Positions 8,201-62,809 of a stretch of 64,000 bases of DNA are shown piece by piece. The first letter of the stretch is position 1; every line of letters begins with the position of its first letter. The notes below the pieces were generated by a model that saw only the letters and a program-made list of their open reading frames with translations, made no database searches and was not told where the DNA came from. The translations under genes were made by a program, and so were the position numbers. Location of the stretch: positions 2,790,001-2,854,000 of the forward strand of contig NC_016476.1 in NCBI RefSeq assembly GCF_000226095.1, written 5' to 3'. The stretch is from Thermothelomyces thermophilus ATCC 42464. Taxonomy: Eukaryota; Ascomycota; Sordariomycetes; Sordariales; Chaetomiaceae.

Positions 8201-8952
8201 AGTAATACCTCCGCTCTTACGTTAACTACTAGTAAGACGACTAGGTCATGCTATTACTAATAATATAACTCGCTTATAATATAATACTAACGGAAACGAC
8301 TAAAGTCACACCGTTCTTTATAAACTATAGATACGAAGCAGACCTTAGGTAAGGACTAGAGGTTATAGTGCGAAGAGCAGCAGTCAAAGTGAAACAAATA
8401 TATATACTATACGAGAAGCTTAAAAACGAACTTAAGTTTGTTAGAACTAGAATAAAGAACTACTACAATAAATATAGGCTTGAGGGACCTTGCCTAGAGA
8501 GGGGAGATAAAGTCCACCTAATTATACAAAACCGGTAAACTAAACGACTAAACACGAAGCTAGACTTTAAGAAGGTCGGACCCTTCGTTATTAAAGAACG
8601 AATTTCGATATCTAACTACTAACTATCGTTACTATTATCTATATAACTACAGATAGATATTTTTCATATTTCATTTCTCGAACTAGCACCAAAGAATGCT
8701 AAGACTGCTATAAATATCAAAGTAGAGGACAAAGAGGAAGAATAGAACGTTAAAAAAATTTTAGATTTACGTATTATTAATAGGGAACTATAGTATCTAG
8801 TTAAATAGCTTGATTTTAGACTAGAAGATAACTTATAGGAACTAGTTAAGAATTTAAACTGCCCTAAGAAACTAGAATAGTTCTACCGGTAGAATCCGGA
8901 TCGACTAAAGGAAAACCTAGGACAGAACCAAAGACAGCGCCCTAGTCGATAG
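5176..8952 (+). pseudogene. pol: pol of element B (PR-RT-RH-IN-chromodomain), full length, RIP-degraded
   Basis: A 3777-bp frame (1259 codons) from the CCT that opens the -1 frame to TAG at 8950-8952, the same length as D. Visible are protease LVDSRAEINLIS, RT with an intact YLDDILIFS box (from about 6574), RNase H, an integrase with Cys/His and D-D-E regions, and a C-terminal chromodomain (about 8750-8880; the Trp of the KWLDF motif is here a TAG). Chromodomains in this lineage read methylated histone H3 to steer integration to heterochromatin. The end overlaps the antisense gene (8846-9499). Dozens of TAG/TAA codons make it non-functional. Confidence 0.9.
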
Positions 8953-9499
8953 CATCGATAGCATTATTAATTTATAACGAGGGTATAGTAAGCGCCTCTT
9001 GCCGCTCTTACTGCTTAACCTCCTCTAACTCGTCTAAGGTTAATAGACTATACGCTACTATATCGGTACCTTTCTTTACCAAAAACTCCTTCTGCTAATA
9101 AAGACGCTAGAGCCGTATAAGCTTTTTAGATAACTCGCGCTAGGCTTTTTCTGGATAGTATTAGAATTTATCTAGCTTAAGTTTAGTATAATGTTTAGCA
9201 TCCTTAATATAATGTTGCTCTTAGAGAATATAATCTACTAGAACGAACATTAGGAATTACATTTAAAAAAAAAAAAAGGAAACGTGCTTATAGGAAGAAA
9301 GCGGTATATTAGAGCTATTACAAGAACGACCTCGACAAATACAGGCTTTGTAACGCTTTATACATACGATCATCTTATAGACAAGACCTTGCAATGTGTA
9401 CTAAGAGCAAGGTATAACGACAAAACCGTTCTTAGTAATGTTCTAAGCAAGGGAAGCATGGTAACGTGTAGAATATAACTTCCGTTTCTTTATCGGCAT
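8846..9499 (-). pseudogene. Antisense Zn2Cys6-like + coiled-coil gene of element B, spliced, RIP-degraded
   Basis: Minus-strand gene, tail-to-tail with pol. Exon 1 runs from ATG at 9499 down to 9292 (208 nt). Codons 31, 34, 41, 50, 53 and 60 are C/Y/Y/Y/C/C, the C-x2-C-x6-C-x8-C-x2-C-x6-C spacing of a fungal Zn2Cys6 cluster with Cys-to-Tyr changes of the RIP type. The intron (9291-9238, 54 bp) starts ATAAGC, a likely mutated GTAAGC. It contains a 13-bp poly-T run on this strand, a CTAAT branch-like site and a final TAG. Exon 2 (9237-8846, 392 nt) is rich in Glu, Lys and Leu (QKEFLVKKGTD, LDELEEVK) and suggests a coiled coil. It ends in TAA. Function unknown; a DNA-binding regulator is inferred from the Cys pattern only. 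Confidence 0.72.
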
Positions 9500-9626
9500 T
9501 TTGTCAATATAGTAACTATAATGTAGAAACAGGAAGAATATAGTACTTACAAGCGAAGGGTTATTAGCGCTATTTGAAATGGCCTAAGAGGGCTTTCGGG
9601 TCGAAAGCCTTAAAGGAGGGGCATTG

Positions 9627-10074
9627 TGTCACGGATAAGTATATAGACAGTCCGGTAGGCTGTAGCTAGGACGTGGGACATTCCGATAGCTAATCACTTG
9701 ACGGACTAATTAGAAGACTATTACTACTAAGACTAAGGTCTTTACTAGTGATAATAATATATTACTATCGATAATACGGAATTACGGAGTAAAAGGAGAA
9801 ATGGTATTAGTAATAACTATTAAAGAGGGATAGATGATTATATATATATAGCTAGCTAGTCACTTGTTATAGTAGACTCTAGGAGTTTACTAGTGATAGT
9901 AACCTATAATCACAGTACTTATACCAAGTATTGCTAACTACTGTAAGAGATAACTCTAGTGTTGTTATAAACCCTTTGGCTTTACCGAATCCCTTAGATG
10001 ACCTGTACGCTTGTCCCGCTTAATTTACCTCCGTCTGAACCCTTTTAGAAGAAGTCTGAGTTAGGTTCGTTACA
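9627..10074 (+). repeat. 3' LTR of element B (U3 type II)
   Basis: 448 bp, from TGTCACGGATAAG to GGTTCGTTACA. Same length and U3 type as the LTRs of F and the solo LTR at 26579. It is preceded by a conserved stem-loop GGCTTTCG/CGAAAGCC (9591-9609) and the polypurine tract. Confidence 0.93.
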
Positions 10075-17080: not shown

Positions 17081-17504
17081 TATGACAAACCCAACTCAGA
17101 CTTCTTCTAAAAGGGTTCAGACAAAGGTAGATTGAGCAGGACAAGCAGGCAGGTCGTCTAAGGGATTCGGTGAAGCCGAAGGGTTTATAATAACACTAGA
17201 GTTGTCTTTCACAGTAATTAGTAATGCTTGGTATACGTACTGTGATTATAGGACAGGTTGCTATCACTAGTGAACTCTTAGAGTCCACCGTAACGAGTAA
17301 CTATCTATATATATATATAATCCTAGTGATCATTCCTGATCACGGTGATTGTGAGTGATCGTATGGTGGTGATTACCCTAATCACTGGTAAGCGTAGTGA
17401 TTACTATGCTTCCTATGTTGTAATTGGTCCTTTCGTTCCTTTGACTTGATTGGCCTATTTGTGCTAGTGGCTTAGGCGGCATTTATATATATATTTCCGT
17501 GACA
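17081..17504 (-). repeat. 3' LTR of element D (U3 type IIIa)
   Basis: 424 bp, TATGACAAACCC to TTCCGTGACA. U3 ends (element start) with TGTCACGGAAATATA, as in G and H, but the middle differs, with a cluster of GTGAT/ATCAC motifs. The polypurine tract lies at about 17510-17517 on the plus strand (as pyrimidines). Confidence 0.94.
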
Positions 17505-17633
17505 TGATGCCTTCCCTCTAAGGCTTTTGACCTAAAAGCCTTCTTTAGGTCGTTTCAAATAGCGCTATTATCCCTTGTGTTCCTTGTATGTGTTTTTCTC
17601 CTTAGCCCCTTATTACCCTTTATACTATTAATT

Positions 17634-18244
17634 ATGCCGTCTAATGTGTGTAGATCCCTAGTATCTATTTATTATAAGCGTTTAGCTTAGTTTATTTCTA
17701 ATTACGGGTTTATAGTGATAGCGTGTTCCTATTGTATAGAGTATAACCAAGTATATAAAATGATTGAAAAATCTTGTCGCTACAAGGCTTGTATACGTCA
17801 GGGTCATACTTATAATGGTTCCAGCGTTCTAGTTTCTTCTTGTAAGTTCCTATTTCCTTGTGAGGGTACGTCTCTAATCGTAGCGTAGTAGATCATATTA
17901 TATACGAGCAACGTCGTTTAAAGGCTAAAGAAAAAGAAGCCAAGGCCTTGCTATAAGAATATTAATATAAAGCTTTTAAGGCGTTAGCCTATCTAACTCG
18001 GGTCTATAAATAATAAGAGTTCCTAGTAGAGAAGGGAGCAGATATGGTTATACGGGGTTTGTCAAATCTAGATAAATTAGAGGTAGTAGAACGGTAGGAA
18101 TCGGGGGCCGTTGTATAACTTAATGGTAGTGTCGACGTTATTAACTAGGGCGCTGTTTTTGGTTCTATCTTAGGTTTGCCTTTGGCCGATCCGGGTTTTA
18201 CTAATAGAACTATTCTAGTTTCCTAGGGCAGTTCAAATTCTTAA
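17634..18244 (+). pseudogene. Antisense Zn2Cys6-like + coiled-coil gene of element D, best preserved, two exons
   Basis: Opposite strand to D's pol, tail-to-tail and overlapping it by 107 bp. Exon 1 17634-17841 starts at ATG and has one in-frame stop. Codons 31/34/41/50/53/60 are C,C,Y,Y,C,Y: Zn2Cys6 spacing with three Cys-to-Tyr changes. The intron 17842-17888 (47 bp) begins GTAAGT, has CTAAT at 17874 and ends GTAG. Splicing restores the frame into exon 2 (17889-18244): YEQRRLKAKEKEAKAL, then EFLVEKGADMVIRGLSNLDKLE, a likely coiled coil. 188 codons in total, ending TAA. The start is 129 bp from the LTR, so antisense transcription from the LTR is plausible. Internal stops are TAG/TAA only. 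DNA binding is inferred, not shown. Confidence 0.75.
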
Positions 18245-21200
18245 TAGGTTCCTATAAGTTATCTTCTAGTCTAAAATTAAGCTATTTAACTAAGTACTAT
18301 AGTTCCCTATTAATAGTATATAAATCTAGAATTTCTTTGACATTCTATTCTTCCTCTTTGTCCTTTGCTTCAATATATATAGCAACCTTGGCGTTTTTTA
18401 GTACTAGTTCGAGAAGTAAAATATAAAAAACATCTATCTATAGTCGTATAGATGATAGTAATGATAGTCAGTAGTTAGATGTCGAAATTTGTTCTTTGAT
18501 AACGAAGGGTCTGACCTTCTTAAAGTCTAGCTTCGTGCTTGGTTGTTTAGTTTGTAAGTTTCGTATAATTAGATAGACTTTGTCTCCCCTCTCTAGGTAA
18601 GGTCCCTCGAGCCTATGTTTGTTGTAGTAGTTCTTTATTCTGGTCTTAATAAACTCGAGTTCCTTTTTAAGCTTTTTATATAATATATATATTTGTTCCG
18701 CTTTGACTGTTGCTCTCGGCACTGTAGCCTCTAGTCCTTGCCTAAGGTCTGCTTTATATCTGTAGTTTGTAAAGAACAGTATAACTTTAGTCGTTTCTAT
18801 TGGCATTATATTATAAGCAAGTTATACTGTTAGTAATAGTATGACCTAGTTATCTTACTAGTAGTTAACATAAGAGTAGAGGTATTGCTTGATAACTTAG
18901 TTTAGTCGCTCCGTTTGTCCGTTAGTCTACGGGTAATATGCTATTAATAGCTTGCTATTAACGCCTAATCGTTATATTAACGCTTACCAGAACTTTAATA
19001 CGAACTTGGTATCTCTATTAGTAATCTATTCTTATAGCTAAGTATATACTAATGTAACTTGCCAATAGATTATATCTACTAACTATTTAGCTATCTAGGA
19101 CTCCTTATAGGGAAAGAAGTATACCTATTTAGTTAGGCAATCTACTATAGTAAGAATACTATTGTAGGTTACTCCTATAGCTATATCCTTAGATTTTAGC
19201 AGCTTTGTAATAAAGTCTATCGTAACCAAGCTCTATAGTTTGTTAACTATTAGCAGTAGCTAAAGTAGCCTATATAGCTTATATTATACCGTTTTGCTTC
19301 AATTATAGATATTATAGTTTTATACGACTTCCTTAACTCGTGCCGTTAACTATAGAAAGTCGTAGTGTTTCCTAACTTATACGATAGTCTTTGTAACTCC
19401 TTTATATCCTCCGAGTTTCGACTTGTAGAGTTCTCGAATCATTCGTAGCTATTAATCCCCGTTATAGATATATACTTTACCTCGGTACTAGAGTTTCCTA
19501 TCTCTTTCTTCTACTCTATCAGGTACTAATGGTCCAGGTACTACTTAATACTATACCTTGTTAATCCTTTCTTCTTAAAAGATTATATAACACTCTAGGA
19601 ACAAGTTAAATGGATTATCTTCTACAGATGTCTACGTTTTGTAATGTAGCGTTCTATCTGTTTGTTCCTTGAATAATGGTAGTGTTGTTCTTGTTCGTCC
19701 TTCCGTATGATCTGTTCGTTAGCTTAAGATGTCTGCTTGTACGTTCTCTTTACCCTTCTTGTAGCGGATCTCGAAGTTGAATTCCGCGAGGAATTCTACC
19801 TATTATATTTATTATCTGTTAAGCTCCTTCGTTGTTGTAAAGTATCGTAAATTCTTATAATCTATATATACTTATACTAGTTTAATCGTATTACTAAGGT
19901 ATAGTCACTATTCCTTAAAAGCTTTAATAATTATAAGTAGTTCCTTATTATAGATTAGATAATTAAGATATAGTCTATTAAGCTTCTTTAAAAAGAAGGC
20001 TATAGGATGTAGCTTTCCTTATCTATCTTATTATTCTAATTATCCTCCGATGGTATAGTCTAAAGCGTCCGTTTCCACCTTAAATGGCTTCCTAGGGTCT
20101 AGTAGTACTAGTACTAGATCTTTAGTAATAGCGTCGCGAATCTATATAAATGCTTACTTGTATTATTCTTCCTATTAGAATTTAGCATTCTTCTTAGTAA
20201 GTTTGTACAAAGGTCGTACGATCGCTCTAAAGTTCCTAATAAACATCTGGTAGAAGTTTATAAATCTGATAAAGCTTTATACTTCTATAACTAATATTGG
20301 TCGTAGCTAATTCTTAATAGCTTTAACCTTTAAAGGTTCTATCTAAATTTATCCTAGGGATATCTTATATCCTAAAAATACCATTTTCCTAATGTAGAAT
20401 TTGCTCTTTTCTTTATTAACTAATAGTTTATACACGTATAGCGTGTCTAGTATTACTTTTATATACTTCTAGTATTCGTCTATCGTCTTAGAGAAGATAA
20501 GTATATCGTCGAGATAATATACCGTAAATTTGTCGAGAAAGGGGCGGATAGCTTGATTAATTAGGGCTTAGAACGTTATTAACGTATTTATAAGTCTAAA
20601 TAGTATGACAAGGTACTTATAGTGACTATAGGGTATCCTAAAGGCCGTTTTCTACTTATTGCCTTCTTTAATCTATATATAATTGTAGGCTAATGGCAAG
20701 TCAAGATATATAAAATATTAGGCTCCTGCTAACTAATCTTAGAGCTATAAGATTAGTAGTAACAGGTATTAGTTTTTTATAACCTGTTCGTTAAGTTACT
20801 AATAGTCGACGTATAACTATAGCTTTCCGTCTTTCTTAGGTATAAATAGGATTAGGTAGCCTGCTAGCGATGTCAACAGGCAGATATATCCTCTTCGAAG
20901 GTTTTCCTCTAAATATCGCTTAAGTTCTTTATTCTATATCTGACTTATATAATAAATCTTAAAGAACTTTAGTTATACTCCTTCCTTAAGCTTAATCTTG
21001 TAATCCTATAGACTATACTCTAGTAATCCTTTTAGATACTTTGGTTTAAATGCTAGGTATCCTCCGTATTCCTTTGGTACTTCCCTAGTCTTGTCTCGTC
21101 TCTCGGTTTTCTAATAGTATATAAACTTAGTTCCGTCTATAGCGATACTAGCGATTTCTCCTATCTTAACCTACTACTCTAATTATAGTGCTCTGCATTC

Positions 21201-21914
21201 ATTAACGGAGAGAATAGCTATCAGCGGTTTAGCTCATTCCTCCTGTCGTAATATTAGTATCGTTATGCCGCTTCTTCTAGAGTCTATAGTAGTCTGCCTA
21301 CCACTATCTATCTCTTATAGTAGATCTATAGGATATGCCTTCCCCTAAGTATTGTCTGCTCGCGATCCTTACGTACTCCCTATCTCGCTAGTCGAATACG
21401 ACTCTATTTAGGGTCGTAGGTAGCTACTATTCTTCTAGCTAATATCCGGGTTATAATCTTTATACTATAGTAACCTTAATATTATATCTTTATCGTTACC
21501 TATATCTATAATACGAAATATAACTATCATAGTCTTCCTTACCATAGTAATATTAATTAGTTTAGTCTCCCTATATACCTATTATATCGGAAATGGCCCT
21601 TTAACTATATTATACTTCTACTTTATTCTCTAGGGTATTTGTAGCTAATTTATAAGCGTCGGTAAAATCAGGTTTATCTCTACTCTACTATCTACTAGTA
21701 TAAGCATTTCGTACTATTTCCATTATACTATTATCTATAGTCGCTTATCTTACTACTGTCATCTAAAGATTATAGCGATTTCCTATATTTCTACTAGGAG
21801 GTCTCAATATAGTAGTCTCTTACGCTAGTTCCTCCTATACTACGCTACTACCTGCCATTATATAGGCATTAATAGTTTCTAGGCCCCTCGAAGGGCCCTG
21901 ACCTGTTTCCTAGG
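18138..21914 (-). pseudogene. pol: pol of element D (PR-RT-RH-IN-chromodomain), RIP-degraded
   Basis: 3777 bp from CCT (21914) to TAA (18140-18138), the same length as in B. The order of domains is protease (near 21690), RT (about 20930-20290), RNase H (about 20280-19780), integrase (about 19480-18480) and chromodomain (about 18350-18250). The segment 18806-18468 is open for 112 codons and covers the integrase C-terminal region (LERGDKVYLIIRNLQTKQPS). It extends 14 codons further than G and H, into the antisense gene. Confidence 0.88.
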
Positions 21915-24130
21915 TTAGTGCTAATCTCTTCGGTTATTTAGCTAATAACGGCTTCGTCGATCGTGCTCATTTCTATGAGCTATTAAGTACTTATAGCTTC
22001 CTACCATTAAGTCCGTTCTACTTTTCGTCGTATATACTATAGCTTTATCTGAAGCTCTTGAATTCGCGATTTCTTTTTATCTACGTGATAGAGGTAATCG
22101 TTGCTCTAGCACAAGTCCTATATATCTCGTTCTGTTCTGTAGTACCTAGGCTAGGCTCGTCTTAGAACTATTGTAATGCCTTCTAGATCGTAGGCTTTGA
22201 TCTTCTAGAGCAATTCGGCCGCTCTGTTTCCTATATTGTAGACCTATTCTATAGGGTGTAAGCTTCTGTCCTCATTTCTTTATTAGGTCGGCTAGTGATT
22301 GTTTTCGAATTTGTTACGGAAGTGATATTGGTATTTGTGTACTATATACTAGAACTAAGGCACTTGTATATATACCTTATGTTAAGGATATAGTTATATA
22401 GCATTGCTTAGGAGGTATTAGAATTCCTTCCTAAATCATTCCCATTGTATATAGACTGTAGGTACCCTAATGCTAAGATAGGAATGTTTCTTCTAGTAGC
22501 TTTCCCATATACGCTTATCTTTTCCGTAGTTTATATATATAAACTAGTATTCTAGGTCCTGTATATCGTTACTAAGTTACTAGTCATTAAGGTACTTAGC
22601 GTAGCTATTAGGCCTATTATATATCATAGGCTATTCTCCTTTAATAGTTTCTATAATATATTAAAGTTCCCTTGTCTTGTTCTTCATCTTATCGCTTTGC
22701 TAGGTAAGTCAAATTAAGCGTCTATTCTATTCATATAGTTCTATATTAAGTTAGAATACTTCATTATAGTACCATTCGATTTGTTTCTAGAGGAATAGAA
22801 CATTAGGTCTAGGTCTTTCGATTCCTTAGGTATTAGTTATCTATAATCTATCCTACCTCTATATGACTGTAAAACCCTACTACCTTGAAGCTAAGAGAAT
22901 CGAAATTAGTAGTACGTATTCTCCTGCCGTATCTTATTTAGCAAGACCTATCTCTAGGTCTATAGTGACTAGTTTAGAGTACGGTACTTGTTTGTCTTTA
23001 CCATTGCCGTTATATCCGAGACTATCCGTGTCACTACTCCTATCTTCGTAGCTCATAGCTACTACTTCGATAATATCCTTAGTAGTTTCGTCAATAGCTG
23101 TAATTTCCTTTCTAGGGACTATCTTCTACTCTTTCTTCGGACTTCGATATTCTCGCTTATAGTGCCCTTTCTTTCTATAGTTATAGTAGGTAACATTAGA
23201 CTTATCTTTAGTCGTCTTCTTTTAGTCCTGCTTCTATACTATATCTATATCTATAACTCTAAGGTATATCTTATATAAAGTACTAATATATATTCGCTTT
23301 TTCTTGTCATTAGCCTTAACTATAGTTCCGTTTATTTAACCTTATTTCTACTACTCTTATATATAGAGTCGATTATTGATTTTAATAGCCTATATAATAT
23401 ATTTATTTAAGGTCTTAGGCTAATTATACCTATATAGCTTATCTTTAACCTTTCTCTTTAAGCTATTATAGAATAATTATATTAATACCTTGTCATTAAG
23501 CTAAGACTTAAGTATATCTTATCTAAACTATATAATATAGGAGGCTACTAACTTAATTTATTAGAGGTTAGTAAGTCTTTCTTATATATAAATCTTCTTA
23601 TCTTTATTACTAAAAACCTTCCAAAGCTCTTCTTCGAAACGGTTATAAGATCAAAAGACTACTTATATAAACGCGTCTCGGTTATCTTTATCTTCCTTAG
23701 TGAGATAGTTATTCTATATAGGCTTAAACTATCTAAGTACCTTACCCTCTAGTCTCGTAACTATATAGAGGACTTTAGCTTTATCGTCTAGAAACTTATC
23801 GTCATTAAGCCAGAAGTAGGATCAGAGGTTTATTAGAAATCCTATAAGATCCTCCTTAGTTCCTCTGTATTTGCTAGGTAGTTCGATCTTGATACGGCTC
23901 GCTTTGGCGCCTTCAAGTGCCTTGATTTTGGCATAGGCCTCGTTAACCAATTTCTATAAGTGCTTTTCGCCATTCTCGAGTTCCTTGATTCGAGCTTGAG
24001 CAGCCTTGTCTCTCTAGTCTAACTCCTAGATTCGCTAATAGAGTTGACCAAGCTAGGCAAGCAGCTATTCGGCTATAACGTTAGTAGCTATGTCGATGTC
24101 GAGGTCGAAGTCACCTCTATTCTAAACTAT
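21869..24130 (-). pseudogene. gag: gag of element D, RIP-degraded
   Basis: 2262 bp, ATA (24130-24128) to TAA (21871-21869). Same layout as the other copies: CCHC knuckle mutated, long C-terminal extension. The junction heptamer AGGAAAC is at 21911-21905 and the GC hairpin follows. Confidence 0.85.
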
Positions 24131-24157
24131 AATAAAATAAAGGGAGTAATAATAACG

Positions 24158-24581
24158 TATAACAAACCTAACTTAGACTTCTTCTAAAAGGGTTTAGACG
24201 AAGGTAGATTAAGCGGGACAAGTAGGCAGGTCGTCTAAGGGATTTGGTAAAGCCGAAGGGTTTATAATAATATTAGAGTTATCTTTTATAGTAATTAGTA
24301 ATACTTAGTATATGTACTATAATTGTAGAATAGGTTACTATTACTAGTGAACTCTTAGAGTCTACTATAACGAGTGACTATCTATATATATATATAATCC
24401 TAGTAATCATTCCTAATTATGGTAATTGTAAGTGATCGTATGGTGGTGATTACCCTGATCATTGGTGAGCGTAGTGATTACTATGCTTCCTATGTTGTAA
24501 TTGGTCCTTTCGTTTCTTTGATTTGATTAGCCTGTTTGTGCTAGTAGCTTAGGCGGCATCTGTATATATATTTCCGTGACA
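24158..24581 (-). repeat. 5' LTR of element D (U3 type IIIa)
   Basis: 424 bp, the same length as its partner at 17081. Differences between the two look like transitions, as expected for RIP after insertion. Confidence 0.94.
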
Positions 24582-34463: not shown

Positions 34464-34890
34464 TGTGACGAACCCAACTCAGACTTCTTCTAAAAGGGTC
34501 CAGACGAAGGTGAATTGAGCGGGACAAGCAGGCAGGTCGTCTAAGGGATTCGGTGAAGCCAAAGGGTTTATAACAATACTAGAGTTGTCTCTCATAGTAA
34601 TTAGCAATGCTTAATATAAGTACTATGATTATGATTGTTACCACTGGTAAACTCCTAGAGTCTACTATAACGAGTGACTATTTATATGTATATATACTCC
34701 TAGGATCACTAGTAGTCGTAGTAATCATTTATACTAGCTTACCTAGCTCATATCGTAAGCTAGTGATCCTCTATTAGGATCATTTCTTGCTAAGCGTGAT
34801 CCCGTCCTGATTGGTCTATCATTCCTTCGGCTTGATTGGCCCGTTCGTGCCAGTGGCTTAGGCAGCATCTATATATATATTTCCATGACA
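34464..34890 (-). repeat. 3' LTR of element G (U3 type IIIb)
   Basis: 427 bp, TGTGACGAACCC to TTCCATGACA; pyrimidine complement of the polypurine tract follows at 34896-34904. U3 shares its ends with D but carries its own centre (AGCTTACCTAGCTCATATCG region), as in H. Confidence 0.95.
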
Positions 34891-35016
34891 CGATGCCCTC
34901 CCTCCGAGGCTTTCGACCCGAAAGCCCTCTTTTAGGCCGTTTCAAATAGCGCTAACATCCTTTCCACGTATACCTTGTAATTTTTCCCTTTTCCCATACT
35001 GCTAGTGACTAACAAA

Positions 35017-35677
35017 ATAGCAGATCGTGTTTCTAAGCACCGATCCTCGAAATCCCAATAGCGTGCCACGCTTGCTTCTTTTATTAATTCTTCTAGTATA
35101 GACGTCATACCGTGTTTATAGTGTTTTAAGCAGAACTTGGCTTATCGTATGGCGTCAGGCTCTTCTCGCTATAGCAAGTGTATATGTCGGGGTCGTTCTT
35201 GCGATAGTTCCGACGTAGCGTCTACTTATTTGTAACCTAGTTTATTACCTTAATGTTCGTAGCTAATTCTTTATAATAATAAAGATTATATCCAAATAAA
35301 AGTATATAGAACAAGAAGAGGCTGATGCCGAAGAGGCCCTTTTTGTCCTTTAGACTTAACTTTAGACGGCTATCGGTCGATTAGCTCGTCTTTATCGCTA
35401 GAAACGTTTCTTGAAGGAGCGGGGTTCCGAGCTATTTCGTCGAGGTATATAGTCTCTAGAGGAAATAGAGGCGGAAGAACGGAGGGTACGAGAGTCCGAA
35501 GCACGTGTTATTAGTAATATACGGTCCTAGGGTGCTAACGTCCCGTTTGACTAGTCTTCTTTAGGCCTGGATTTGTCGGAGGCCGACTTGGCCGTTTTGT
35601 CTAAGCTAGTGCCTACGGTCGATCCGGGTTCTGCTAGTAGAACTATTCTAGTTTCTTAGGGCAGTTCAAGTTCTTGA
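35017..35677 (+). pseudogene. Antisense Zn2Cys6-like + coiled-coil gene of element G
   Basis: Opposite strand to pol of G, starting 127 bp from the LTR. The start codon is ATA (35017-35019), probably mutated ATG. Codons 33/36/43/52/55/62 are C,C,Y,Y,C,C with exact C-x2-C-x6-C-x8-C-x2-C-x6-C spacing. The second half is in another frame: YIEQEEADAEEALFVL, LKERGSELFRRG, LEEIEAEERRVRESEARV, highly charged and probably coiled coil. Then DLAVLSKLVPTVDPGS and TGA at 35675-35677. The frame change near 35225-35295 matches the intron position in D and B, but the splice sites are not clear here (GTAACC at 35232 is a candidate donor). It overlaps the end of pol by 65 bp. Confidence 0.68.
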
Positions 35678-49300: not shown

Positions 49301-50069
49301 ATTAACAGCATATCACCCGCAGACTAACAGGCAAATAGAACAATTAAACTAAGTTATTAAGTAGTATCTCCGTTCTTACGTTAACTACTAGCAAGATGAC
49401 TAGGTTATACTATTACTAGTAGTATAACTCGCTTATAATATAATACTAACGGAAATGACCAAAGTTACACCGTTCTTTACGAATTACAGATATAAAGTAG
49501 ACCTTAGGCAAGGACCAGAGGTCACAGTGCCGAGAGCAGCAGTCAAAGCGGAACAAATATACACACTATATAAAAAGCTTAAAAAGGAACTCGAGTTTGT
49601 CAAGACCAGAATAAAGAACTACTACGACAAACATAGGCTCAAGGGACCTCGCCTAGAGAGGGGAGACAAAGTCTACCTGATCGCACGAAACTTACAAACT
49701 AAACAACTAAGCGCGAAGCTAGACTTTAAGAAAGATAGACCCTTCGTTATCAAAGAACAAATTTCGACATCTAACTACCGACTATCGTTACCGTCATCTA
49801 TACGACTATAGACAGATGTTTTTTATATTTTACTCCTCGAACTAGTACTAAAAAACGCTAAGGTTGCTACATATATCGAAGCAGAAGATAAGGAAGAAGA
49901 ATAAGATGTCGAAGAAATTCTAGATTTATATATTATTAATAGGGAACTATAGTACCTAGTTAAATGGCTTGATTTTAGACTAGAAGATAACTTATAAGAA
50001 CTAGTCAAGAACTTAAACTGCCCTAAGAAACTAGAATAGTTCTACCAGCAGAACCTGGATCGATCGTAG
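46335..50069 (+). pseudogene. pol: pol of element H (PR-RT-RH-IN-chromodomain), full length
   Basis: Single frame of 1245 codons in the -1 frame relative to gag, overlapping it by 46 nt. Counting from CCT: protease Asp75 in LMDSRAE; RT VNYWQLN near 368 and YLDDILIFS at 467-475; RNase H Asp616; integrase His837, CxxC ending at Cys870 (Tyr-Asp-Ile-Cys), then Asp900, Asp966 and Glu1002 (35 residues between the last two, the D-D-35-E rule). The GPY/F-like region (LERGDKVYLIARNLQTKQ) lies in the open segment 49455-49811. Chromodomain about 1194-1236 with an intact KWLDF motif. TAG at 50067-50069 ends it. Many internal TAG/TAA make it dead. Confidence 0.92.
46338..46368 (+). promoter_or_regulatory. 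Candidate -1 ribosomal frameshift signal at the gag-pol junction (H; same in the other copies)
   Basis: Heptamer A-GGA-AAC in gag frame (46338-46344), 6-nt spacer, then an 18-nt stem-loop (GGGCCC stem, TTCGAG loop; here AGGCCC on the left arm). Pol frame opens at CCT just before it and gag stops (TAA) 10 nt behind it. Same arrangement: A 2218-2212, B 5179-5185, C 11711-11705, D 21911-21905, F 51451-51457, G 39344-39338. The usual heptamer would be GGGAAAC; CTG to CTA is a RIP-type change, so the original may have been canonical. Confidence 0.6.
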
Positions 50070-50665
50070 GCACTAGCTTAGACAAAACGGCCAAGTCAGC
50101 CTCCAATAAATCCAGGCCTAAAGAAGACCAGTCAAACGGGACGTCAGCACCCCAGGACCGTATATTACTAATAATACGTACTTTGGAATCCCGTACCCTC
50201 TGTTCTTCCGCCTCTATTTCCTCTAGAGACTGTATACCTTGACAAAATAGCTTGGAACCCCGCTCCTTTAAGAAACGTTTCTAGCGACAAAGACGAGCTA
50301 ATCGACCAATAGCCGTCTAAAGTTAAGTCTAAAGGACAAAAAGAGCCTCTTTGGCATCGGCTTCTTCTTGTTCTATATGCTTTTGTTCGGATATAATCTT
50401 CGTTACTATAAAGAATTAGCTACAAACATTAAGGTAACAAACTAGGTTACAAATAAGCAGACGCTATATTAGAACCATCGTAAGAACGACCCCAACGTAT
50501 GCACTCGCTATAGCGAGAAGAGCCTAACGCCATACGATAAGCTAAGTTCTGCCTAAAACACTACGAACACGGTATGACGTCTATACCAGAAGAATTAATA
50601 AAAGAAGTAAGCGTGGTATGCTATTAGGATTTTGAGGATCGGCGCTTAGAAACACAATCTGCTAT
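50005..50665 (-). pseudogene. Antisense Zn2Cys6-like + coiled-coil gene of element H
   Basis: Same length (661 bp) and design as in G. The start is ATA (50665-50663), 127 bp from the 3' LTR. The Cys cluster reads C,C,Y,Y,C,Y at the conserved spacing (PCS-x-C...SYDGS). The second half, in another frame, is rich in Glu/Arg/Leu and ends TGA (50007-50005). It overlaps pol by 65 bp. A CTAAT and TATAG before the second half fit an intron end, but the donor is unclear. Confidence 0.67.
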
Positions 50666-50792
50666 CTTGTTAATCACTAGTAGTATAGGAAAAGGGAAAA
50701 ATTACAAGGTATATATAGAAAAGGATATTAGCGCTATTTAAAACAGCCTAAAAGAGGGCTTTTAGGTCGAAAGCCTCAGAGGGAGGGTATCG

Positions 50793-51219
50793 TGTCACGG
50801 AAATATATATATAGATGCTACCTAAGCTACTAGCACGAACGGGCTAATCAAGCCGAAGGAATGATAGACTAATTAGGACGGGATCATGCTTAGTAAGAAA
50901 TAATCCTAATAGAGGATCACTAGCTCACGATATAAGCCAGGTAAGCTAGTATAAATGATTACCACGACTGCTAGTGATCCTAGGAGTATATATACATATA
51001 AATAGTCACTCGTCATGGTGGACTCTAGGAGTTCACCAGTAGTAACAATTACAATTACAGTACTTATACCGAGCATTGCTAATTACTGTAAGAGATAACT
51101 CTAGTGTTGTTGTGAACCCTTTGGCTTCACCGAATCCCTTAGACGACCTGCCTGCTTGTCACGCTCAATCTACCTCCGTCTGGACCCTTTCAGAAGAAGT
51201 CTGAGTTGGGTTTGTCACA
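50793..51219 (+). repeat. 3' LTR of element H (U3 type IIIb)
   Basis: 427 bp, TGTCACGGAAATAT to GGTTTGTCACA. Preceded by the polypurine tract AGAGGGAGGG (50778-50787) and the conserved stem-loop (about 50752-50771). Confidence 0.95.
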
Positions 51220-54400: not shown

Positions 54401-55215
54401 AGCTATTAACGGCATATCACCTACAGACTAACAGACAAATGGAGTAACTAAACCAAGTTATCAAGTAATACTTCCGTTTTTACGTTAACTACTAATAAGA
54501 CGACTAGGTCATGCTATTACTAATAGTATAACTTACCTATAATATAACGCTAATAGAAACGACCAAAGTTATACCGTTCTTTATAAACTATAGATATAAA
54601 GTAGACCTTAGGCAAGGACTAGAGGTTACGGTGCCGAGAGCAGTAGTCAAAGCGAAACAAATATACGTACTATACAAGAAGCTTAAAAACAAACTTAAGT
54701 TTGTCAGAACTAAAATAAAGAACTACTATGATAAATATAGGCTTAAGGGACCTTACTTAGAGAGGGGAGATAAAGTCTACCTAATTATACGAAACCTACG
54801 AACCAAACGACCAAGTACGAAGTTAGACTTTAAGAAGGTCGGACCCTTTGTTATTAAAGAACAAATTTCGATATCTAACTACCAATTATCATTACTATCA
54901 TCTATACAACTACAGACAGATATTTTTTATATTTCATTTCTCGAACTAGCATTAAAAAATGCTAAGACCGCTATAAATATCGAAGTAGAGGACGAAGAGG
55001 AAGAATAGGACGTCAAAAAAATTCTAGATTTATATATCATTAATAAGGAACTATAGTATCTAGTTAAATAGCTTAATTTTAGACTAGAGGATAACTTATA
55101 AGAACTAGTTAAGAATTTAAACTGCCTTAAGAAACTAGAATAGTTCTACCGGTAGAACCCGGATCGACTAAAGGAAAACCTAGGACAGAACTAAAGACGG
55201 CACCCTAGTCAATAG
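51448..55215 (+). pseudogene. pol: pol of element F (PR-RT-RH-IN-chromodomain)
   Basis: 3768 bp to TAG at 55213-55215; 9 bp shorter than B because of an in-frame deletion in RNase H (near 53475). Domain order as in H, with an intact Leu-Asp-Asp catalytic box near 52850 and an integrase C-terminal segment open at 54631-55008 (ERGDKVYLIIRNLRTKRPS). The chromodomain (about 55015-55130) has TAG in place of the Trp of KWLDF. RIP-mutated throughout. Confidence 0.9.
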
Positions 55216-55767: not shown

Positions 55768-55894
55768 TTTGTTAATATAGTGACTATAATGTAGAAATAG
55801 GAAGAATATAGTACTTACAAGCGAAGGGTTATTAGCGCTATTTGAAACGGCCTAAGAGGGCTTTCGGGTCGAAAGCCTTAAAGGAGGGGTATCG

Positions 55895-56342
55895 TGTCAT
55901 AGATAAGTATATAGACGGTCCGGCAAGCTATAGCCAGGACACGGGACATTCCGATAGCTAATCACTTGATAGACCAATTAGAAGACTATCACTACTAAGA
56001 CTAAGGTCTTCACTAGTAATAATAACATATCACTATTAATAACGTAGAATCATAGAGTAAAAGGAGAAATGGTACTAGTGATAACTATTAAAGAGGGATA
56101 GATAATTGTATATATATAGCTAGCTAGTCACTCGTTATAGTGGACTCTAGGAGTTTACTAGTAATAGTAACCTATAATTATAGTACTTATACTAAGCATC
56201 GCTGACTACTGTGAGAGACAACTCTAGTGTTGTTATAAACCCTTTGGCTTTACCGAATCCCTTAGACGACCTGTACGCTTATCCCGCTTAATTTACCTCC
56301 GTCTGAACCCTTTTAGAAGAAGTCTAAGTTGGGTTTGTTACA
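55895..56342 (+). repeat. 3' LTR of element F (U3 type II)
   Basis: 448 bp, TGTCATAGATAAG to GGTTTGTTACA, followed by the target copy atcgt. Polypurine tract AAAGGAGGGG at 55880-55889. Confidence 0.95.
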
Positions 56343-61332: not shown

Positions 61333-62252
61333 ACTAGGTATCACGTAGGTCTTTCTAACATCTGCGCCCTAGCCGGGTACGGCGACGAGAACAACTTCAT
61401 TTCCTTAGCCTCAAGACCACCGCCCTTCCCATGGAGGACCACGCAGATGCAAGACGCCGAAACCCCCGCCTCAAACCGTACCAGTACAGAAGCTAACAAG
61501 AAATTCCCCCACGCCCTCCGACTCTTTACCAGCACCTATACCATCGTCTACCGCCGCTTCGGCGACAACACCATCCTCTCATACCTACATGTCACCCTCG
61601 TTTTCATTTACCACCTCACCTTCTGCCCTGACGCCATAGCCCATGTCGCCCCTCATTTACCCTGGAAGCTGACAGCACTCATGCTGAATCCGTTGGTTTC
61701 GTTTTCCTCGTCTTCTGCTGAACAGCAGCACAACGGTTCGAATCTGTTAGAGAGTGAGGGGTTCCCCGCCATCCGGGAGGTCCGGAAGGGTGAGGACGAG
61801 GATGTCGAGGTTACTAAGACGACGAAAGAGGAGAGTTCTGCAGGCAATGGGGGCCAGGAGAACACCAAGTCCTTGAAATTGGACCTGGCCCGCCGCGGCC
61901 GCCGCCCGCTGCCAGACGACTACGCTATGAGAGGGTTCCCTTGGGTCGAGCGGTATTTCCCCGGTAACTGGTTCAACACGGACAAGAGGGTTGATGATGA
62001 CGACAAGTACCTGGAGCTAGCCTCTATGATTCTGGAGAGGAGGAACAGGTTGTTGTGGCTGGGTGTACGCATCGCGGCGCGCGAGGGAGGTGGCAAGTCG
62101 TTGACTTTTTTGATCCCAAGACCAGGATGTTCGGCGTCAACCCGGCATATGAGGTTGAGCTCGATCTGCAGTTACCGGAAATGCCACCTATCCCGAGTCA
62201 GAGCGTGGATATGGATATTGAGGATTTGCCTGATGCGGGGAGCGTGGCGTGA
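61333..62252 (+). pseudogene. C-terminal relic of an Est1-type DNA/RNA-binding domain protein, frameshifted
   Basis: Frame open from 61333 (first Met 61447): LSNICALAGYGDENN, then LRLFTSTYTIVYRRFGD, LSYLHVTLVFIYHLTFCPDA, PWKLTALMLN, RRPLPDDYAMRGFPWVERYFPGNWF and ASMILERRNRLLWLGVRIA. This pattern is what I know from the C-terminal part of fungal Est1/SMG-type proteins (telomerase accessory / RNA decay relatives). After RIA the protein continues in another frame (RWQVVDFFDPKTRMFGV...DIEDLPDAGSVA, TGA 62250-62252). A frameshift in the GCGGCGCGCGA run (62074-62084) therefore breaks it. The N-terminal TPR-like part is not seen upstream, so the gene is truncated. Composition is host-like. Confidence 0.6.
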
Positions 62253-62809
62253 GTGGAGCAGAAATCTGGGGTGGCGGCCAGCCGCGACTCGGAGAATAGG
62301 AAAAAATGACAAGCCAAGGAACACAAATGGTCCCTAACCGGCTTACGACCAGCATAGCAGCAGCAGCGTAATGACCTTGGCACAGGAAGATTTCTCGTAC
62401 GAGGTTCTCCACCCGACCCTGCCGATCCCGACGACTTGCCGGCTTTGACCTGAGCCGAAAATGCAACCCATTCTCCGACCTAGGCTCGAAATCGTTGTGG
62501 ACGAGTTTGATGTATTAGAAGATGTACCTTGTTTTCTTCTTTCCCTATATCCGTATGTCTCAAAATGGACCTTCGCTGTTTTGATGTTCATATTTCCTGC
62601 CCCCTGAGAGATGCTTAGAGTGGTGATGGCATTCGATGGGTTGTCACTGTGTTGCGGGGTTAACCATCTTTGTGTACCATCTCCCTACCCCCTAAAAGAG
62701 AGAGCTACGCCAAACAGCAATGATTCGGAAATCGCCCTCACATCCGTCGCCTTCCATACCACCCGGAAGACATCCACCAGCACGGTGAGAACGCGCAACG
62801 TCCCGCGAG
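62253..62809. other. Intergenic region before the kinase gene
   Basis: Balanced, unmutated sequence; should contain the 3' end of the relic and the kinase promoter. CAG repeat-like stretch at about 62351-62368. No distinct element recognised. Confidence 0.4.

Follow-up and report, generated by a model that had tools for sequence, protein, structure and literature searches.

Regulatory genes that lie antisense to the other genes of a long terminal repeat (LTR) element occur in deltaretroviruses and are suspected to exist in plants. In the human T-cell leukemia viruses HTLV-1 and HTLV-2, HBZ and APH-2, respectively, are encoded by a spliced antisense regulator gene that starts towards the 3′ LTR, and HBZ, which has a coiled coil (leucine zipper), represses viral sense transcription, as described in the part of PMC3185765 used here. 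For the plant Ty3/gypsy element Retand, the part of PMC11963269 used here describes antisense TRP28 open reading frames (ORFs) between pol and the 3′ LTR, with a product predicted to bind DNA and a regulatory role proposed by the author. The Podospora element crapaud, a chromodomain element under repeat-induced point mutation (RIP), comprises old subfamilies that differ in U3 and share R/U5 and most of the internal region; in the sections used here, the authors hold that escape from RIP is not the cause of these subfamilies and leave promoter selection or recombination open (PMC10787394). The window analyzed in the current study, i.e., the whole stretch of 64,000 nucleotides at positions 2,790,001 to 2,854,000 of contig NC_016476.1 (RefSeq assembly GCF_000226095.1, forward strand) of the fungus Thermothelomyces thermophilus ATCC 42464, carries five copies (B, D, F, G, and H) of a chromovirus family with an antisense ORF (aORF) beside the 3′ LTR. 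By its conservation and exon structure, the aORF is a real, element-borne, antisense, intron-containing gene that encodes a cluster of six cysteines (Cys6) followed by a long predicted helix. Beyond what an earlier note on this window had described, aORF and U3 appear to differ together between elements with the same gag-pol.

An antisense gene beside the 3′ LTR

Repeats make up most of the window as far as about 56 kb. In a profile search of copy D, RVT_1, RT_RNaseH, SH3_Tf2-1, and Chromo exceeded the cut-off, and gag and the integrase zinc-binding domain stayed below it; Chromo reached 52 bits in L047, a copy of the same genome free of RIP damage, and LTR pairs are present in copies D and G. 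With an LTR pair, reverse transcriptase, RNase H, integrase parts, and a C-terminal chromodomain, the elements are chromoviruses (Ty3/gypsy), which upholds the assignment in the earlier note. Only four stop-free frames of at least 150 codons occur in the window, as expected for RIP-damaged DNA. The chassis and the aORF copies are located as follows.

18191..24222, minus strand: gag-pol chassis of copy D (Pfam matches; the stretch searched, not exact gene ends)
17634..18244, plus strand: aORF of copy D, type D, RIP-damaged (exon 1 17634-17841, intron 17842-17888, exon 2 17889-18244)
8846..9499, minus strand: aORF of copy B, type B, RIP-damaged (exon 1 9499-9292, intron 9291-9238, exon 2 9237-8846); intact relative P0050, un-RIPped copies L032-L049
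55109..55767, minus strand: aORF of copy F, type B, RIP-damaged (exon 1 55767-55560, intron 55559-55501, exon 2 55500-55109)
35017..35677, plus strand: aORF of copy G, type G, RIP-damaged, intron ends not fixed
50005..50665, minus strand: aORF of copy H, type G, RIP-damaged, intron ends not fixed

The spacing C-x2-C-x6-C-x8-C-x2-C-x6-C is present in all five copies at the places where the earlier note had reported it, and all 30 motif positions are indeed Cys or Tyr; since B/F and G/H are same-type pairs, these are three independent readings and not five. The claim of an intron at a constant place was likewise borne out: exon 1 measures 208 nucleotides (nt) in B, D, and F, the introns (54, 47, and 59 nt, respectively) have GT/AT...AG ends, and the sum of both exons is divisible by three in each of these copies. 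The frame change in G and H implies an intron in the same region. Across the copies, the aORF sits between pol and the 3′ LTR, antisense to gag-pol, as is characteristic of antisense-ORF LTR elements. Its location had been given as opposite the 3′ end of pol, of which the antisense orientation and an overlap with the pol end stand, but most of the gene lies beyond pol, before the 3′ LTR. In L047, the two genes overlap tail-to-tail by 113 nt, with the aORF stop at 798-800 and a pol frame that is open until 907 (stop at 908-910).

Undamaged copies were found in the genome of T. thermophilus itself (38.7 Mb, 7 contigs). A search with the protein P0050 gave 216 matches, and among the about 150 of them that were listed, at least 18 exon-2 matches (99% identical) and at least 9 exon-1 matches (96% identical) contained no stop. 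The gene of L047 is open from ATG to stop through GTAAGC...TTCTAG at the predicted intron place, and its junction reads like that of P0050. The search with P0001, a relative of type G, gave 159 matches, with stops in all matches listed. The stop-free exon 2 copies (L032-L049) all belong to type B, which was therefore probably the last active type. A poly-T run in the intron varies in length among the stop-free copies seen. Pieces of the aORF (P0118, P0140, P0146, P0148, P0151, P0155, and P0156) are publicly annotated as separate T. thermophilus hypothetical proteins with MYCTH_ names, several of them with odd joins.

The intact homologues for which the earlier note had proposed a search do exist. 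Even the damaged exon-2-frame reading of copy G (X at stops) matched proteins with expect values (E) down to 3e-41, several of them with all six cysteines, and three protein searches yielded 156 distinct homologous proteins, 101 of which retain all six. The spacing pattern of Zn2Cys6 proteins, C-x2-C-x6-C-(5-12)-C-x2-C-(6-8)-C, is exact in 75 of the 156 and closely approached in 26; among the remaining 55, the six places hold nothing but Cys or Tyr in nine, and several more, not checked individually, begin in exon 2 or miss part of the cluster. All named sources are fungi, e.g., Parathielavia, Canariomyces, Chaetomium, Corynascus, Staphylotrichum, and Apiosordaria, as well as Verticillium, Colletotrichum, Trichoderma, Fusarium, Microdochium, and Pseudomassariella, genera which we take to be Sordariomycetes. 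The six cysteines are invariant in the 41-member alignment A2, whose members were selected by the motif. At least 44 homologues cross the exon junction without an insert, and 12 have an in-frame insert at the same place (counted by eye from 29 script-listed rows, with an exon-2 start word that admits only L or V), which is consistent with a single homologous intron. A chance antisense frame made by RIP would fit the broken window copies and the link of Cys and Tyr by RIP-type transitions, but such an artefact, to which we assign a negligible probability, is ruled out by the intact homologues and the un-RIPped copies.

The place of the gene beside pol is not special to T. thermophilus. The C-terminal tails of three gene models, chosen because their ends resembled run-on readings, match the antisense strand of the T. 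thermophilus pol end in the chromodomain region with 28-43 bits, compared to 20.8 bits for the best of 150 shuffled tails: P0084 of Chaetomium globosum (E 7.7e-6), P0043 of Staphylotrichum tortipilum (5.7e-11), and P0041 of Corynascus similis (1.7e-10). P0003 was excluded as evidence of context, as its tail matches both strands of L047 and thus suggests a chimeric contig. With five or fewer substitutions allowed, the tail motif GSSGGTPPVSQGS was present in 15 of 69 homologues, compared to a mean of 0.02 after shuffling. Because the motif is located on the chassis side of the junction, it speaks for the pol overlap and not for a kinship of the aORF bodies.

The cysteine cluster and the helix

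The earlier note had described the product as Zn2Cys6-like with a coiled-coil-like second half. The latter agrees with the AlphaFold model of P0050 (mean predicted local distance difference test score, 85), in which short helices and a strand surround the Cys positions, followed by a long helix (residues 67-132) and a low-confidence tail. Of the former, the six-Cys spacing stands, but a standard Zn2Cys6 domain does not, as the halves are apparently swapped and the Pfam profile stays below its cut-off. Zn_clus was matched with E ≤ 1 by 15/41 and 11/14 members of two sets (best E, 0.0011), and in P0001 and L047, the first half of the aORF cluster aligns to the second half of the Pfam profile. 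A profile comparison with host clusters, represented by 16 of the 60 zinc clusters found in the same genome, gave 94.4% for aORF half 1 versus host half 2 and 16.6% versus host half 1, and for aORF half 2, 82.7% versus host half 1 and 75.9% versus host half 2. The swapped order of halves scored 94.2% compared to 68.7% for the native order; the highest values in 30 column shuffles were 6.6% and 19.6%, respectively. An earlier comparison of the whole domain had given 39.7% over 16 columns, with no more than 2.2% in 20 column shuffles. A proline precedes the first Cys of half 1 in 53/55 aORF proteins, in 16/16 host second halves, and in 2/16 host first halves, and Asp or Asn follows the last Cys of half 2 in 54/55 aORF proteins and in 13/16 host first halves. 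The standard Gal4-type order, i.e., the basic half first, Pro before the second half and Asp/Asn after the first, was not found in the aORF. Since aORF half 2 scores nearly equally on both host halves, most of the evidence for the swap comes from half 1 and from the Pro and Asp/Asn positions. Overall, this suggests that the aORF cluster is a zinc cluster with its halves in reverse order relative to host Zn2Cys6.

RIP produces transitions, so that transversions gauge the older divergence. Between an un-RIPped B copy and D, 32, 19, and 48 transversions fall on codon positions 1, 2, and 3, respectively (p = 0.0017; exon 1, p = 0.038; exon 2, p = 0.041), a third-position excess as expected for a protein under selection.

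One gag-pol chassis with several aORF and U3 types

The five window copies and their relatives in the genome indicate that four aORF types share one gag-pol chassis and that the elements are otherwise nearly identical. In the whole-element comparison, which covered types B, D, and G in windows of 400 nt, pairs of different types showed 0.000-0.010 transversions per site in gag-pol, same-type pairs 0.000-0.007; in aORF and LTR windows, different-type pairs reached 0.15-0.27 and 0.035-0.11, respectively. At a finer scale, transversions number 0-1 per 60 columns both in the pol end and, short of the ragged ends, in R-U5; between them lie the strongly diverged aORF, a block without any transversion that holds a palindrome and the putative polypurine tract, and the likewise diverged U3, whose first part is common to D and G. 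The features concerned are the following.

18189..18209, minus strand: end of the shared chassis and chromodomain coding in copy D, type-specific beyond (same place at 8881-8901 in B, 55144-55164 in F, 35622-35642 in G, and 50040-50060 in H)
17522..17540, no strand: 19-bp near-perfect palindrome between aORF start and LTR in copy D (also at 9591-9609, 34908-34926, 50757-50775, and 55859-55877)
17320..17504, minus strand: U3 of the 3′ LTR of copy D, type D (approximate, LTR start to TATA-like run)
34697..34890, minus strand: U3 of the 3′ LTR of copy G, type G (approximate)
50793..50986, plus strand: U3 of the 3′ LTR of copy H, type G (approximate)
9627..9838, plus strand: U3 of the 3′ LTR of copy B, type B (approximate)
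55895..56108, plus strand: U3 of the 3′ LTR of copy F, type B (approximate)

A census of 39 further pol ends and the five window copies assigned 14 to type E, 12 to B, 10 to D, 7 to G, and 1 to none of these; L062 is window copy H (100%), so the census comprises 43 distinct sequences. When L085 and the duplicate were excluded, the pol ends of the remaining 42 resembled each other across types as far as about position 300 and became type-specific at position 309 and beyond; a transversion polymorphism at position 255 occurs in both states in types E, B, and D. L085, the odd one, has a reversed insertion at the pol end, i.e., a reversed LTR and then a B-type aORF right at the chassis end. The fourth type, E (L051-L055, L057, L058, L064, L068, L072, L075, L077, L079, and L086), has its own aORF and U3 and was not recognized among the window copies studied. 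The Cys spacing of its aORF contains x7 and x9 (by eye), and no close homologue was found, the best being 36% identical.

The palindrome GGCTTTCGGGTCGAAAGCC, located in L047 at a distance of 91 bp upstream of the ATG of the aORF, occurs in 203 exact copies in the genome (reversed control, 0). It is constant in types B, D, and G, while the neighboring sequence differs, and 18 of its 19 bases are found in the E copy L064 (by eye). It may serve as an operator or belong to the polypurine-tract region, either of which would fit.

The aORF type equals the U3 type in 123 of 127 loci, two of these with a close second choice. Of the remaining four, one (L066) has no U3 match and three are mismatches with LTRs of nested or neighboring elements. 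No mixed aORF/U3 element was found in the 127 loci, L073 aside, which grouped with B in the pol-end census and with E/E in the linkage table and is probably a nested insertion. The loci had been picked by aORF or pol and never by U3, with uneven sampling (B-type query, 58; G-type query, 30; pol-end query, 39) and with overlapping loci kept, e.g., L072/L106 and L042/L096. In D, G, and H, the two LTRs of each element are closer to each other than to those of other types. The pol end and R-U5, which are equally near to aORF and U3, do not follow the type. These observations suggest that aORF and U3 behave as an exchangeable regulator-promoter cassette.

Adjacent sequences can also travel together passively, and template switching might simply have joined the 3′ ends of different lineages to a common gag-pol, with a protein that does something else or little. 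Recombination of co-packaged RNAs is an accepted account of LTR mosaics in the sections used of PMC10787394, and the evidence presented here consists of sequence only. Three findings count against such passive mosaics, i.e., the junction at the same place in four types, directly after the chromodomain, the constant block between aORF and U3, and the retention of six cysteines in diverged homologues; we regard them as a serious yet unlikely alternative. According to another scenario, small RNAs from the sense/antisense overlap would drive the types to diverge against cross-silencing, the protein being secondary. The variable part does include a stretch that is presumably transcribed on both strands, but silencing escape alone leaves the conserved protein in many genera and the third-position excess unexplained, and we consider it improbable. 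Equally improbable in our view is a protein that works on nucleic acid elsewhere, e.g., in packaging, integration choice, or RNA binding: its small size, the lack of a recognized activation domain, and a zinc cluster off the standard order would suit such a role, but it would leave unexplained why the aORF type is followed by U3 and not by R-U5 or gag-pol.

With respect to the age of the types, a 32-row tree, in which the rows wD and wF have an unusual composition, grouped the D copy with a Corynascus protein (98/90) and type B with a Canariomyces protein (89/88). The G copy paired with P0001 (99/96), next to which Parathielavia and another Canariomyces protein were placed (89/93). As the nearest relatives of B, D, and G thus belong to other genera, these types probably predate the genera, although the chassis is nearly uniform within T. 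thermophilus. Corynascus similis contains three different aORF branches (P0041, P0115, and P0139), and several aORF types may co-exist in that species, too.

In the GC-rich flank of the window, the ORF at 62608-63465 matches a protein kinase with 30.8 bits (Pfam cut-off, 31.7), and the ORF at 61333-62337 has no match.

A putative self-regulator and its nearest known systems

The explanation that we favor is that the chromovirus encodes, beside its 3′ LTR, a spliced antisense protein of about 200 residues, with an N-terminal Cys6 cluster as the putative DNA contact, a 66-residue helix as a putative dimerizing coiled coil, and a tail that is modeled with low confidence and is probably flexible. 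As the start of the gene faces the LTR, its transcript would probably begin at or near the 3′ LTR. The intron would survive retrotransposition in antisense orientation because the genomic RNA of the element would not be spliced at that place. The most likely role of the protein would be that of a self-made regulator of the element's own U3, and a zinc-cluster protein acting on U3 would be the simplest reading of a type-wise difference in aORF and U3 with the rest constant. The two are probably cognate and exchanged jointly among elements that have a gag-pol in common; the simplest route would be a template switch while two co-packaged RNAs are being reverse-transcribed. Old, co-existing types suggest a rare-type advantage, and since each has been kept with its own U3, a type-specific repressor, i.e., copy-number or immunity control, would be favored over an activator. 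Taken as a whole, this account of a spliced antisense self-regulator with a cognate U3, probably a repressor, seems to us slightly on the probable side.

Several results weigh against it. The Pfam cut-off for Zn_clus (21 bits) was reached neither by P0001 (10.8 bits) nor by exon 1 of L047 (12.8 bits), a fold search gave no significant match, and scans of viral and genome contig collections with alignment A1 produced 73 and 86 pattern matches, respectively, none of which encodes a relative, so that they supplied no DNA context from other species. The codon-position test was not significant for B-G (p = 0.25) and D-G (p = 0.38). A DNA dyad common to all U3 types was not found in a search for CGG dyads, and six-mer enrichment in U3 was marginal and confined to part of the D and G copies (lowest value in 500 resamplings, 0.012, uncorrected for 23 U3s tested). 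Finally, aORF and U3 adjoin, so that their linkage alone can be passive, and type E stood outside the whole-element comparison.

The sign of the regulation would be reversed if the aORF were a cognate activator of its own U3, with which the aORF/U3 linkage fits equally well. Many fungal zinc-cluster proteins are activators, which counts for this alternative; no activation domain was recognized in the aORF product, though such domains are often unrecognizable. A trans-acting activator would, however, also serve residents of the same type and favor the common type, yet several old types persist, and we consider an activator unlikely, though well within consideration. The self-repressor may be carried further to an exchangeable immunity module, in which an antisense repressor that is specific to its type and has the halves of its zinc cluster swapped would form, together with its cognate U3, ancient types that are kept by rare-type advantage on one nearly uniform gag-pol; we offer this more specific version tentatively and hold it to be rather doubtful.

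A comparable arrangement exists in the immunity regions of lambdoid phages, where a regulator gene and its target sites are exchanged as a unit on a common chassis. The likeness lies in the unit of regulator and target; the systems differ in that function is proven in the phages and would only be presumed for the aORF. From Gal4-type Zn2Cys6 factors, the aORF product differs by its apparently swapped halves, its Pfam score below the cut-off, and its shortness. No fungal antisense zinc-cluster ORF was found in the titles or abstract openings of the literature searched, with subscription journals mostly outside its scope. The nearest precedents for the antisense gene are HBZ and Retand. With HBZ and APH-2, the aORF shares the antisense orientation, splicing (predicted for the aORF), a start towards the 3′ LTR, and, in the case of HBZ, a coiled coil, which is putative in the aORF; the protein fold is different, an exchange of regulator-U3 cassettes is not described for HBZ and APH-2 in the part of the source used, and expression and function of the aORF are putative. 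Retand resembles it by an antisense position between pol and the 3′ LTR and a putative DNA-binding product, but it belongs to a non-chromovirus plant lineage, has a TRP28 domain and a region of about 3-6.6 kb, and a coupling to U3 types is not mentioned in the part of the source used.

A parallel to the types of T. thermophilus is provided by crapaud, whose old subfamilies are likewise localized to U3 on a mostly homologous internal region. It differs in that only two ORFs are drawn and that the words antisense and zinc are absent from the main text (PMC10787394). Exchange of an aORF and U3 cassette could explain the U3 "subfamilies" of crapaud. If the proposed explanation is true, a regulator-promoter cassette that moves as such in a fungus would show that retrotransposons can carry type-specific self-control, and the existence of subfamilies that differ in U3 only, as in crapaud and similar elements of fungi, would have a direct cause open to testing.
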